Below, in pieces: positions 33-4,667 of a stretch of 64,000 nt of DNA; within the stretch, counting starts at the first letter, position 1; each line of letters begins with the position of its first letter. Both the position numbers and the translations under genes were made by a program. Below the pieces are notes generated by a model. The model did not search any database. It had not been told where the DNA came from and saw only the letters and a list, made by a program, of their open reading frames with translations. This DNA comes from Candidatus Manganitrophus morganii (GTDB lineage: Bacteria > Nitrospirota > Nitrospiria > SBBL01 > Manganitrophaceae): contig JAJHOH010000001.1 in NCBI GenBank assembly GCA_021651055.1, positions 1,550,001 through 1,614,000 of the forward strand. The letters run 5' to 3'.

Positions 33-1898
33 TTAACTCGGCGGACGGATATGTAGGATCAACACGGGTCGGTCGACCTGGGAGAGGACCTGGCTGGTGA
101 CGCTGTTGGTCAGGAAGGCCTCTCGGAGATTCCCGATTCGGGTGCCGAGGACCAACAGATCGTAGCTTCCCTCATAGGCCTCTTTCAAGATCGAGCTGAC
201 GATCTCCCCCTCCCCGACCTTTGTCTCCACCCGCAGGCCGAGGCTCTCCAAAACCCGAAGAACCCCCTGAAGGTAGAAGGCCCCGCCGTTTTCCTCCCCC
301 TCCGGCGTCACGTGGAAAAGGGTGACGCTGGCGCCGGTGCTCCGGGCAATCCGCCCCACGAAACGAATATCCGACTTTCGGACCTTCTCGCTCGAGATGC
401 AGACGAGGATCTTCTTGAAATCCTGGAAGGGGGTCGGGGTGAGCAGCGTCGGCACCGGCGCGTTCACCGACACGCGGGCGGCAGTCGATCCGAGAAAGCG
501 GCCCGGGGCGTGGCGGCCGCGGGTGCCGAGGACGACCAGGTCATACCGGTTCTGCTCCGTCTCGTTGAGGATTTCCTCGGCGGGATGTCCCCGCCGATAC
601 GCCGTCTCCACCTCCTGAAGCTCCTGCTGGGCCGCCTGGCTCGCCTGGGTCAGTCCCTCGCGCGCCTTGGCCTCTTCCAGATAGCGCTCGGCCACCCCCA
701 GAATCGTCAGCCGTCCCTGGGTCTTCTGCGCCAAATAAGAAGCAAAGTGAAGCGCATGCTCCCCATGCTCCGACCCGTCGATCCCTACAAGGATATGCAG
801 TCCCTGATACGGAAGGATATGAAAGGAGGTCACCCCGACGGCAACCTTCTGCCCCGATCCGATCGGGAAGCTCGTTTGCGCCAATCCCATCTGTACCGAA
901 AGAACCGTCGGGTCGGTATCCCCGAAGCCTGCGGTCAGGGAGCGGACGACTCCGGAAACCTGCACCGTCATCCGGTGGAATCCCCCGACAAAGAGAAAAT
1001 CCCGAATCTCCCCTTCCCCGATAAAGGTGCCGTGAAGCGCCTCCCGGCTCGGCGCAATTTCGATCTGCTCCGGCCGGATCAACACCTGCACCCGCTCTCC
1101 TTTTTCCGGCGCCGCGGTCCCCTCCGGAAGAGGGAGGAAAGCCGAGCCGATCTGAATATGCCGTTCCTGCATCACCCCCGTGAAGAAGTTCGCAGAGCCG
1201 AGGAATTGCGCCACATACTCCGACTTGGGCCGCTTGTAGATATCGGCCGGAGCGCCGGTGGCAAGGAGCTTTCCCCGATCCATGATCCCGATCCGGTCGC
1301 CCAGCTCGAAAGCGTCGGCCTGATCGTGGGTCACCATCACCGTGGTGACCCCCAGCTGCCGGTGGATCTGCTTGAGGCTTTGCCGGAGCTGCGTGCGGGT
1401 CTTCAAATCGAGCGCGCCGAACGGCTCGTCGAGCAGAAGCACGCTCGGCTCATAAGCAAGCGCCCGCGCCACCGCGACCCGCTGCTGCTGGCCGCCGGAG
1501 AGCTGAGAGGGATAACGATGGCCGAAGCCGGGAAGCCCGATCAGCTCCAGAAGATGATGGATCTTCTTATCCCGCTCCTCGCGGGGAACCCGCCGGAGCT
1601 GAAGTCCGAATCCGATGTTCTCGGCGACCGTCATGTGACGGAAGAGGGAGTAGTTCTGGAAGACGAAGCCGACGTTTCTCTCCTGGGGGGTCAGATCGTT
1701 CACCACCTTCCCCTGCAGCAGGATCTCCCCCTGATCGGGCGTGACCAGCCCGGCGATCATCCGGAGGATCGTCGTCTTGCCGCTGCCGCTCGCTCCGAGT
1801 AAAACAAAGAGCTCTCCTGGGAAGATCTCCAGGGTGGCGTTCTCCACCACCGCCTGCTCGCCGTATAATTTCGAGATATTTTTGAGTGAAATGGACAT
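33..1898 (-). CDS. Sulfate-type ABC importer ATPase fused to two universal-stress (UspA) domains
   Basis: The N-terminal 235 or so residues are an ABC ATPase of the CysA/ModC type: Walker A GASGSGKT at 35-42, signature LSGGQ at 133-137, Walker B LLLDEP at 154-159, switch His191. A TOBE-like regulatory segment follows (about 270-362). Residues 367-490 form a first UspA domain (HILVGIDGS start, GTRGR nucleotide-loop motif near 458) and 495-618 a second one whose nucleotide loop is degenerate (GTRIG, TN where GS is expected). CysA-type ATPases normally end near 350 residues, so the roughly 260-residue tail is an addition. It is the last gene of a binding protein-permease-ATPase operon; the permease stop lies 41 bp upstream. 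The ATPase should energise oxyanion import. A sensory role for the Usp tail is inferred. Confidence 0.9.
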   Translation of the reverse strand: MSISLKNISKLYGEQAVVENATLEIFPGELFVLLGASGSGKTTILRMIAGLVTPDQGEILLQGKVVNDLTPQERNVGFVFQNYSLFRHMTVAENIGFGLQLRRVPREERDKKIHHLLELIGLPGFGHRYPSQLSGGQQQRVAVARALAYEPSVLLLDEPFGALDLKTRTQLRQSLKQIHRQLGVTTVMVTHDQADAFELGDRIGIMDRGKLLATGAPADIYKRPKSEYVAQFLGSANFFTGVMQERHIQIGSAFLPLPEGTAAPEKGERVQVLIRPEQIEIAPSREALHGTFIGEGEIRDFLFVGGFHRMTVQVSGVVRSLTAGFGDTDPTVLSVQMGLAQTSFPIGSGQKVAVGVTSFHILPYQGLHILVGIDGSEHGEHALHFASYLAQKTQGRLTILGVAERYLEEAKAREGLTQASQAAQQELQEVETAYRRGHPAEEILNETEQNRYDLVVLGTRGRHAPGRFLGSTAARVSVNAPVPTLLTPTPFQDFKKILVCISSEKVRKSDIRFVGRIARSTGASVTLFHVTPEGEENGGAFYLQGVLRVLESLGLRVETKVGEGEIVSSILKEAYEGSYDLLVLGTRIGNLREAFLTNSVTSQVLSQVDRPVLILHIRPPS

Positions 1899-1939: not shown

Positions 1940-2773
1940 TCAGGCCTCCGCCGGCTCTTCTCTCTCTGTCACACGAAGAAGGATAAAGAAGATAACAAAC
2001 GAAAGCATCGCGAGGACTGCGGCCACGGCATTGGCCGCTTCAATGTTTCCCGCTTCGAATTGGGAGAAAATGTAAAGCGGCGCCGTCTGGGTCCGTAGCC
2101 GCAAATTCCCCGAGACCATCACCGTTGCCCCGAATTCCCCGAGGGAATGGGCGAAGGTCAGCAACGTACCGGTAAAGAGCGCCCCGCGGAGCGAAGGGAG
2201 AATGACATACCAGAAGGTCTTCAATCGCCCCGCCCCCATTGTGTAGGCGGCCTCTTCATAGGTCACCTCCAGCTCATCCAGCACCGGCTTTACCGCGCCG
2301 AGCATATAGGGGAAGGTCACGAAGACATGCGCCAGAAGAATGCCGCCGATTGCGAACATCGGCCGGAAGCCGAGCGGGTCGAGATAACGGCCGACCAGAC
2401 CGATCGGTCCCCAGAGGAGCAGGAGGGAAGTTCCGACGACGACGGTCGGAATCGCAACCGGCAGGTTGATCAAGATGCCGAGCGGCCGCTTCGCCGGGAA
2501 GCGATAGTTTGCGAAAATATAGGCGGTGAGGGTCCCTAAAACCGAGTTCAAGAGACTGGTAATCAGCGCCACGAAGAGGCTTAAGCGAAGGGCAAACTGC
2601 GCCCCCTCCCCGGTCAGCGCGGTGATGAACCGGGAGAGTCCGTCGCGGGTGGCGAAAACGAAGATCGCGCCGATCGGCATGATCAGCAGGGGAAACAACA
2701 CCATGAAGACCATCGCGATCAGAAGCCCCCGCCATGGGAGCCGAACACGCGCAGCTTGCAGCGGATTGATCAT
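1940..2773 (-). CDS. Sulfate/molybdate-type ABC transporter permease (CysW/CysT family)
   Basis: This 277-residue inner-membrane protein has six predicted membrane segments and the cytoplasmic EAA loop typical of binding-protein-dependent permeases (EEAAYTMGAGRLKTFW near 172-187), which docks on the ATPase. The start ATG overlaps the stop of the binding-protein gene as ATGA (2770-2773), so the two are translationally coupled. CysTWA sulfate systems have two different permeases; only one gene is present here, so the channel is probably a homodimer, as in ModB, WtpB or TupB systems. The substrate (sulfate, thiosulfate, molybdate or tungstate) cannot be fixed from sequence alone, although the binding protein resembles the sulfate group. 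Confidence 0.88.
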   Translation of the reverse strand: MINPLQAARVRLPWRGLLIAMVFMVLFPLLIMPIGAIFVFATRDGLSRFITALTGEGAQFALRLSLFVALITSLLNSVLGTLTAYIFANYRFPAKRPLGILINLPVAIPTVVVGTSLLLLWGPIGLVGRYLDPLGFRPMFAIGGILLAHVFVTFPYMLGAVKPVLDELEVTYEEAAYTMGAGRLKTFWYVILPSLRGALFTGTLLTFAHSLGEFGATVMVSGNLRLRTQTAPLYIFSQFEAGNIEAANAVAAVLAMLSFVIFFILLRVTEREEPAEA

Positions 2774-3786: not shown

Positions 3787-4115
3787 GGGATGCGATCCTT
3801 ATCTTTAATATGTATATGCTGAGTTGCCCGAAGAAGCAGGCGCTGGATGAGGGGACGGACGTCGCTCAATTTTCGCGGGGGCATCGATTATGCGACCATC
3901 TTAAGGTTGTGAAACCCTGTGTTCAATTATACAGATTTCGTCAAGAGCGCTTCAAGTCAGGCGAAATAAGGGTGTGGCTCTCTCTACAAAGGGGCTGAGA
4001 ATGAGCTGTCTTCAATGGTAAATCGCTCCATGACTGTTGTATTTGTTCGAATATGTTATGATCAGACGTCATTGAATCCATCATTGCCGTGCGGTTCACA
4101 GGAGGAGGTCTATCG
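3787..4115. other. Divergent intergenic region between the oxyanion operon and msrA
   Basis: About 330 bp with no convincing gene. A TATGAT hexamer at 4057-4062 with a weak CTGTTG 17 bp upstream could be the msrA promoter. I see no hairpin or riboswitch. The 72-codon open frame at the left edge of the region lacks a ribosome binding site and protein-like composition. Confidence 0.4.
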
Positions 4116-4667
4116 ATGAGCAGTGAAACCGAAACAAAAGAAGTCGCCACCTTCGGCGGCGGCTGTTTCTGGTGTTTGGATGCGGTCTTCGCCGATCTAA
4201 AGGGGGTCGAGAGCGCCGTCTCCGGCTATGCGGGGGGGACGGTCGACAATCCGACCTACCGCCAGGTCTGCAGCGGAACGACCGGCCATGCCGAGGTATC
4301 GCAGGTGACCTTCGATCCGAAGGTCATCACCTTTCGCGAGCTGCTGGAGGTCTTCTTTACGATCCACGATCCAACGACGTTGAATCGCCAAGGGGCCGAT
4401 GAGGGAACCCAATACCGCTCGGCCGTCTACTATCACACGCCGGAGCAGAAGGCAATCGCCGAACAGGTGATCAATGAGCTCACGGCGAAGGGTGTCTGGG
4501 ACACGCCGATCGTAACGGAGGTGACCCCTTTTGAAAAATTCTATCGGGCGGAAGATGAACATCAGGACTACTATAAAAATAACCCCGGCCAGGGATATTG
4601 TCGGGTGGTGATCGCCCCCAAAGTCGCAAAAGCGCGGAAGCAGTTTCTGGAGAAGTTGAAGCGGTAG
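4116..4667 (+). CDS. msrA: Peptide methionine sulfoxide reductase A
   Basis: MsrA reduces methionine-S-sulfoxide in oxidised proteins using thioredoxin. The 183-residue product has the family signature GCFWC at 16-20 (nucleophile Cys17), the GYAGG segment, the EVFFTIHDPTTLNRQG segment, the DEGTQYRS segment and a C-terminal GYC that can supply a resolving cysteine. I chose ATG 4116 rather than the in-frame GTG at 4089 because a strong GGAGGAG (4101-4107) sits eight bases upstream and because the family begins just before the GGGCFWC motif. It is monocistronic and converges with the DUF4340 gene with only three bases between the two stops. Confidence 0.97.
   Translation: MSSETETKEVATFGGGCFWCLDAVFADLKGVESAVSGYAGGTVDNPTYRQVCSGTTGHAEVSQVTFDPKVITFRELLEVFFTIHDPTTLNRQGADEGTQYRSAVYYHTPEQKAIAEQVINELTAKGVWDTPIVTEVTPFEKFYRAEDEHQDYYKNNPGQGYCRVVIAPKVAKARKQFLEKLKR

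Follow-up and report, generated by a model that had tools for sequence, protein, structure and literature searches.

Does the long minus-strand reading frame at the start of this stretch of Candidatus Manganitrophus morganii DNA encode a real fusion of an ABC importer ATPase to two universal-stress protein (Usp) domains, and if so, what could such a tail do for a transporter? A preliminary description, made from the letters alone, had taken the frame for an anion-importer ATPase with a TOBE region followed by two Usp modules, the first with a recognizable nucleotide loop and the second with a degenerate one, and had suggested that the tail could gate anion uptake by energy state. Here, the fusion is followed through its genus and into a second phylum, and the possible roles of the tail are weighed. 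The window is the whole stretch of DNA that was analyzed, 64,000 nucleotides in length, and coordinates without further label refer to it. The features discussed are as follows.

33–1898, minus strand: fused gene (ABC ATPase, OB/TOBE, Usp1, Usp2)
1194–1898, minus strand: nucleotide-binding domain, residues 1–235
804–1193, minus strand: OB/TOBE-type (MalK/CysA-like) regulatory region, residues 236–365
426–803, minus strand: Usp1, residues 366–491
486–527, minus strand: Usp1 nucleotide loop, GTRG-(8x)-GS, residues 458–471
36–425, minus strand: Usp2, residues 492–621
1940–2773, minus strand: single CysT-like permease, 277 amino acids
2770–3786, minus strand: sulfate-type substrate-binding protein (SBP), 338 amino acids, first gene of the operon

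Domain Organization of the Fused Protein

The frame opens with ATG and encodes 621 amino acids with no internal stop codon. Pfam places ABC_tran at residues 19–160 (E 3.8e-37), and the set of motifs of a MalK/CysA-type ATPase is complete: Walker A GASGSGKT (residues 35–42), the Q-loop (Q81), the LSGGQ signature (133–137), Walker B LLLDEP (154–159), and the H-loop (H191). Apart from small substitutions in Walker A, these motifs are invariant in all 11 aligned fused proteins, which come from two phyla. The ATPase scores below the CysA equivalog thresholds of NCBIfam (301.8 versus 502 for NF008105 and 303.7 versus 342.75 for TIGR00968), and in Pfam TOBE_2 (20.6, cut-off 21) and CysA_C_terminal (22.9, cut-off 29.7) both fall slightly under their cut-offs.

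The predicted structure of residues 1–366 has pLDDT values mostly between 80 and 96. It aligns with CysA (Protein Data Bank code 1z47), which is also the closest solved sequence, over 340 residues with a Z score of 37.0, and its best fold matches are CysA, MalK, and FbpC at Z 36–38. Residues 236–365 of the model correspond to an OB-type C-terminal regulatory region, and the earlier boundary of the ATPase and TOBE part at residue 362 was right to within a few residues. The tail is poorly modeled, with 5 alignment rows over it and 10-residue pLDDT means mostly between 26 and 78; another prediction, from five close alignment rows, has a mean pLDDT of 39.8. Fold searches with the model returned matches to the ATPase part and none to the tail. 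The assignment of the tail as Usp therefore rests on sequence profiles and not on the model.

Those profiles find Usp in two stretches of the protein (E 5.5e-38, 131 bits, cut-off 24), the first at residues 368–487. When scored singly in a whole-genome scan against the same cut-off, Usp1 and Usp2 reach 85 and 47 bits. ATP-binding Usps of the UspFG type follow a sequence rule of an Asp after strand 1 and a loop G-2x-G-8/9x-G(S/T). Usp1 fits this rule with Asp374 and G458-TR-G461-8x-G470-S471, its loop reading GTRGRHAPGRFLGS (residues 458–471). Usp2 departs from it, lacking the Asp as well as the second and the last Gly; it carries GTRIGNLREAFLTNS where the loop is expected, and the form found in the genus is GTR[IV]GNLREAF[LM]TNS. 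The two loops are thus as the preliminary description had them. Pfam finds no CBS domain in the fused protein at E values up to 0.1. The idea that the tail arose by recent duplication of one Usp was ruled out, the distance between Usp1 and Usp2 on the tree being 4.4 changes per site.

The Fused Gene in the Genus Candidatus Manganitrophus

The fused gene is present, in one frame, in five of the six genomes of the genus, counting that of the window; the sixth is 72% complete. The set includes Candidatus Manganitrophus sp. GAC4 (G004, CP114561.1) and Candidatus Manganitrophaceae bacterium (G003, SCUR01000568.1). The other four copies are 100, 99, 87, and 78% identical to the window's protein. A local assembly artefact is excluded, as the fusion recurs in the genomes of the genus and in a second phylum; the single frame, the Pfam matches, and the five genomes together bear out a real ATPase-Usp-Usp fusion. 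Across the genus the Usp1 loop is invariant except at position 466, which is Gly or Ser, and the degenerate loop of Usp2 is itself conserved.

In the ATPase domain, dN/dS is 0.10 between the window's genome and G003 and 0.12 between it and a further genome of the genus, G005; the corresponding values are 0.084 and 0.093 in Usp1, and 0.083 and 0.182 in Usp2. Usp1 is thus constrained about as strictly as the ATPase domain. For the tail, the values are 0.08–0.23 between diverged genomes of the genus and 0.03–0.08 inside a Herpetosiphon-like group of the second phylum. The tail is under purifying selection and shows no decay.

A Probable Sulfate-type Importer Operon with One Permease

In Manganitrophus the operon runs from the SBP through one permease to the fused ATPase, and the permease gene overlaps the SBP gene by 4 bases. 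The best solved relatives of the SBP are SubI (6ddn, E 2.7e-35) and a sulfate-binding protein (1sbp, E 5.7e-35); at one aligned position it has a Tyr, as does SubI, where 1sbp has a Trp. Its NCBIfam score is 141.2 against a cut-off of 155.5. The permease matches BPD_transp_1 (E 5e-16) and reaches 234 bits for TIGR00969, the cut-off of which is 240. Members of Ca. Manganitrophaceae assimilate sulfate (PMC9040806). Judged from these sequences, the substrate is likely to be sulfate or a close oxyanion, which supports the anion importer named in the preliminary description, probably one of the sulfate type.

The single permease of the Manganitrophus operon stands against two in the Nitrospira-type and Chloroflexota relatives. 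Because the CysT-like permease is the only one kept, the membrane part is presumably a homodimer or takes its partner from elsewhere. A second operon of the window's genome, at 1.690–1.695 Mb, is canonical and is composed of an SBP, two permeases, and a 354-residue ATPase in which TOBE_3 and CysA_C_terminal score above cut-off; we read a further gene of this operon as an Rrf2-like regulator. In the GAC4 assembly, a frameshift splits the SBP gene of the fused operon (2797153–2798165), and the second sulfate operon (2652394–2655770) has in-frame TGA codons in its SBP and ATPase genes, perhaps sequencing errors.

Two neighbors of the fused operon were also recorded. A gene for methionine sulfoxide reductase A (4089–4667, plus strand) lies divergently beside it in the window's genome and in two others of the genus (G002 and G004), and in G005 another gene is situated between the two. 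Genes for a DacZ-type diadenylate cyclase and a DHH/DHHA1 protein are found at G000:C1:1542756–1543133 (L190:6706–9011) in the window's genome, with a like neighborhood in the four other genomes of the genus.

Distribution and Origin of the Fusion

With the tail as query, 396 genomes of the phylum yielded no fusion beyond those of the genus. Related Nitrospira-type operons of this phylum have two permeases and an unfused ATPase of 365 residues that stops short of the tail. When genome contigs were scanned with the patterns V[GA]IDGSEH and VAER[YF]LEE, both parts were detected in one frame only in two Manganitrophus records. A fusion private to the genus was considered and dropped when the full-length architecture was found in Chloroflexota, where 7 of 151 genomes match the full-length profile from position 1 to 588–616 with E values of 1e-133 to 1e-149; the pattern scan had missed these members because the two patterns are not conserved there. 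One carrier (G1624) matches Herpetosiphon aurantiacus 114-95T, four more are close to it (91–97% per domain where computed), and G1664 and G1606 represent two further lineages. In the Chloroflexota operons the order is fused ATPase, SBP, permeases, with two permease matches each. The full-length profile gave no fused match in 198, 299, 299, 296, and 151 genomes from the phyla of five other loci, a result limited by the scoring of the best 4–8 ATPase candidates per genome, and a plasmid collection yielded no match covering 80% of the query. The preliminary description was right that such a tail is unusual on anion-transport ATPases, but other organisms have it too.

Phylogenetic trees bear on how the two phyla came to share it. 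When the tail columns are omitted, fused ATPases from the two phyla group in a single clade apart from 28 unfused ATPases (bootstrap 99, SH-aLRT 97), and in a tree of 155 Usp domains the fused Usp2 domains from the two phyla likewise group together (SH-aLRT 97). As the ATPase and Usp2 trees agree, the simplest reading is one fusion event, with gene transfer or numerous losses afterwards. In trees of the SBP and the permease, built by a quick method, the two fused systems stay apart, so these partners may have been exchanged or may now be too divergent for their history to show. On the Chloroflexota Usp1, for which three of four rows have 19–36% of columns filled, the Usp tree carries no information, and profile comparison was therefore used. 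This domain, which Pfam does not recognize, scores 97% against the generic Usp profile and 96% against the Usp1 of Manganitrophus. The Manganitrophus Usp1 is close to ordinary Usps (99.9% against the generic profile). The domain closest to the Chloroflexota Usp2 is the Manganitrophus Usp2 (hhalign 99.3–99.4%).

Elsewhere, the window's genome has a stand-alone tandem Usp (L045), a candidate source of the tail, as well as a Usp fusion of another kind at about 2663473–2665998 of G000:C1 (L046:1974–4499), where one frame of at least 842 amino acids contains two Usps, three PCP_red (protochlorophyllide-reductase-like) repeats, and a rubredoxin-like domain.

Conservation of the Tail and Its Nucleotide Loops

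The alignment of the 11 fused proteins reveals which parts of the tail are kept in both phyla. Usp1 retains Asp374 and scattered core residues, and Usp2 retains L498, C500, K508, D510, F513, R516, G522, A523, D580, G585, PVLI, and R618. The Usp1 loop lacks five columns in every one of the seven Chloroflexota members. The five Herpetosiphon-like proteins have a near-typical Usp2, with the Asp and G-APL-9x-GS; in G1664 and G1606 the Asp of Usp2 is replaced and the loop is shortened, and two of the seven Chloroflexota proteins have an intact loop in neither Usp. The fusion, the fold, and the Usp2 core are common to both lineages, and no nucleotide loop is. Since the Usp1 loop is deleted throughout the Chloroflexota members, nucleotide gating cannot be what the tail is conserved for, and may be peculiar to the Manganitrophus lineage.

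Proposed Role of the Tail

The balance of the evidence tips slightly toward a C-terminal regulatory or dimerization tail on a sulfate-type importer ATPase, fused once and common to both lineages; a general regulatory or dimer-forming module is more likely than an energy gauge. On this reading, the fused protein is the ATPase subunit of a CysA/MalK-like importer and gained its tandem Usp module a single time, and Ca. Manganitrophus and some Chloroflexota share the fused gene through transfer or through common descent with losses. Because a transporter has two ATPase subunits, two tandem-Usp tails would lie beneath the ATPase dimer. Each tail could pair with its partner, as tandem Usps form dimers of tandems (PMC3673472), and the paired tails might switch the ATPase dimer from a working to a locked state and back on a cytoplasmic signal. 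Importer ATPases are biased by C-terminal tails in MetN (C2), in ModC, and in proteins with CBS pairs (PMC10710835). Given the intact Usp1 loop, the signal in Manganitrophus is likely to be an adenine nucleotide; in most of the Chloroflexota members, where loops are lost, the tail would have to act by protein contact or through another ligand. That both lineages keep the fusion, the fold, and the Usp2 core and not the loop fits a tail that pairs or docks below the ATPase dimer. The same conservation would be expected if the Usps had an independent but localized function, which counts against this explanation. More tentatively, and with rather less than even confidence, we suggest that these proteins are an unnamed subfamily of ABC importer ATPases, present in at least two phyla, whose tandem Usp tail is a regulatory dimer clamp; the clamp would be conserved throughout, and nucleotide sensing would have been retained, transferred to the other Usp, or abandoned according to lineage.

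The energy gating proposed in the preliminary description, in which ATP or AMP bound to Usp1 would turn anion uptake on or off according to the energy state of the cell, is the strongest rival. Part of it stands: the Asp374 and GTRG-8x-GS loop is intact across the genus, with the 8-residue spacing of NE1028, which binds AMP (PMC3673472), and Usp1 is as constrained as the ATPase domain. The degenerate second loop does not speak against it, as the tandem protein TTHA0350, in which one loop is likewise intact and the other degenerate, has ATP bound at both (PMC3673472). It has been suggested that Usp domains attached to transporters report energy status, a general proposal for which no transporter was tested (PMC10710835). 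What does not stand is gating as a property of the family, given the Usp1 loop deletion in every Chloroflexota member and the two proteins left with no intact loop at all. As ATP is millimolar in cells, an energy-reporting site must also tell AMP or ADP from ATP, which sequence cannot show. We consider energy gating unlikely, though a candidate within Manganitrophus.

It is improbable that the tail keeps an ordinary Usp function and uses the ATPase only as a membrane anchor, with transport unregulated. The likeness of Usp1 to ordinary Usps and the fusing of Usp pairs elsewhere in the same genome (Usp-Usp-PCP_red-rubredoxin) would agree with such tethering, but the tail has been retained on an importer ATPase in two phyla, in one of which the Usp1 ligand site was lost. 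Expression of the Usp part as a separate product from an internal start, or a functionless passenger, is very improbable. A GTG near residue 354–356 does follow an AGAAGG-like stretch in some genomes, but its position shifts from genome to genome; the only start codon at a conserved position near the junction is Met337, present in all genomes of the genus and lacking a Shine-Dalgarno-like sequence. A separate, internally started product is therefore unsupported by the sequences, and dN/dS values of 0.03–0.23 over both Usps, together with the same fusion in a second phylum, argue against a passenger. Least probable, to the point of being barely credible, is the sensing of c-di-AMP in the manner of the Usp domain of KdpD. 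The DacZ-type cyclase gene, adjoining the DHH/DHHA1 gene, lies 7–10 kb from the fused gene in five genomes, but unrelated genes are situated between them, the KdpD-type motif (A/G/C)XSXSX2N(Y/F) is absent from both Usp1 and Usp2, and an intact ATP-type loop has been described as precluding c-di-AMP.

Comparison with Known Systems

Fusions of Usp domains to transporters are common, and according to a 2023 review none has been characterized as a regulator (PMC10710835); the partners named are MFS proteins, amino-acid permeases, and ion exchangers (PMC10710835, PMC12159084). Such fusions, and the suggestion that they report energy, are already published. For a Usp tail on an ABC importer ATPase, no paper was found in the literature searched, outside which most subscription journals lie. 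The fused ATPase is the soluble-side subunit of a well understood class of importer, so that regulation by its tail is directly testable; the loop-less Chloroflexota relatives can serve as a control supplied by nature, and one carrier, Herpetosiphon aurantiacus, is in culture.

Among membrane systems, the Usp fusions to MFS proteins, amino-acid permeases, Na+/H+ exchangers, and KdpD (PMC10710835, PMC12159084, PMC8214093) resemble the present one as transport-linked additions proposed to sense energy or second messengers; in those the partner is a membrane protein or a kinase, whereas here it is the ATPase of an ABC importer. TTHA0350 and other UspE-type tandem Usps (PMC3673472) likewise combine an intact first with a degenerate second nucleotide loop, but they stand alone, whereas here the pair is fused and the intact loop is absent from the Chloroflexota members. 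The tandem Usp Rv2623 has been proposed as a negative regulator of the ABC transporter Rv1747 (PMC5549992); in that case, however, the Usp is a separate protein, contact involves an FHA domain and a phosphothreonine, and the transporter is an exporter.

With the CysA/MalK-type ATPases (1z47 CysA, MalK, FbpC, and PotA), the fused protein shares the ATPase motifs, the OB-type C-terminal region, and an operon with SBP and permease. The known members stop after the OB region, whereas the fused protein adds 256 residues that form two Usps. OpuA/OpuCA with a CBS pair, MetN with C2, and ModC with its regulatory domain are alike in placing a small-molecule-binding C-terminal domain on each importer ATPase; the tail described here differs in having the Usp fold and no CBS domain, and its ligand is a predicted one. 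If the proposed role is true, Usp would join the short list of tails, with C2, CBS, and OB/TOBE, that control ABC importers.
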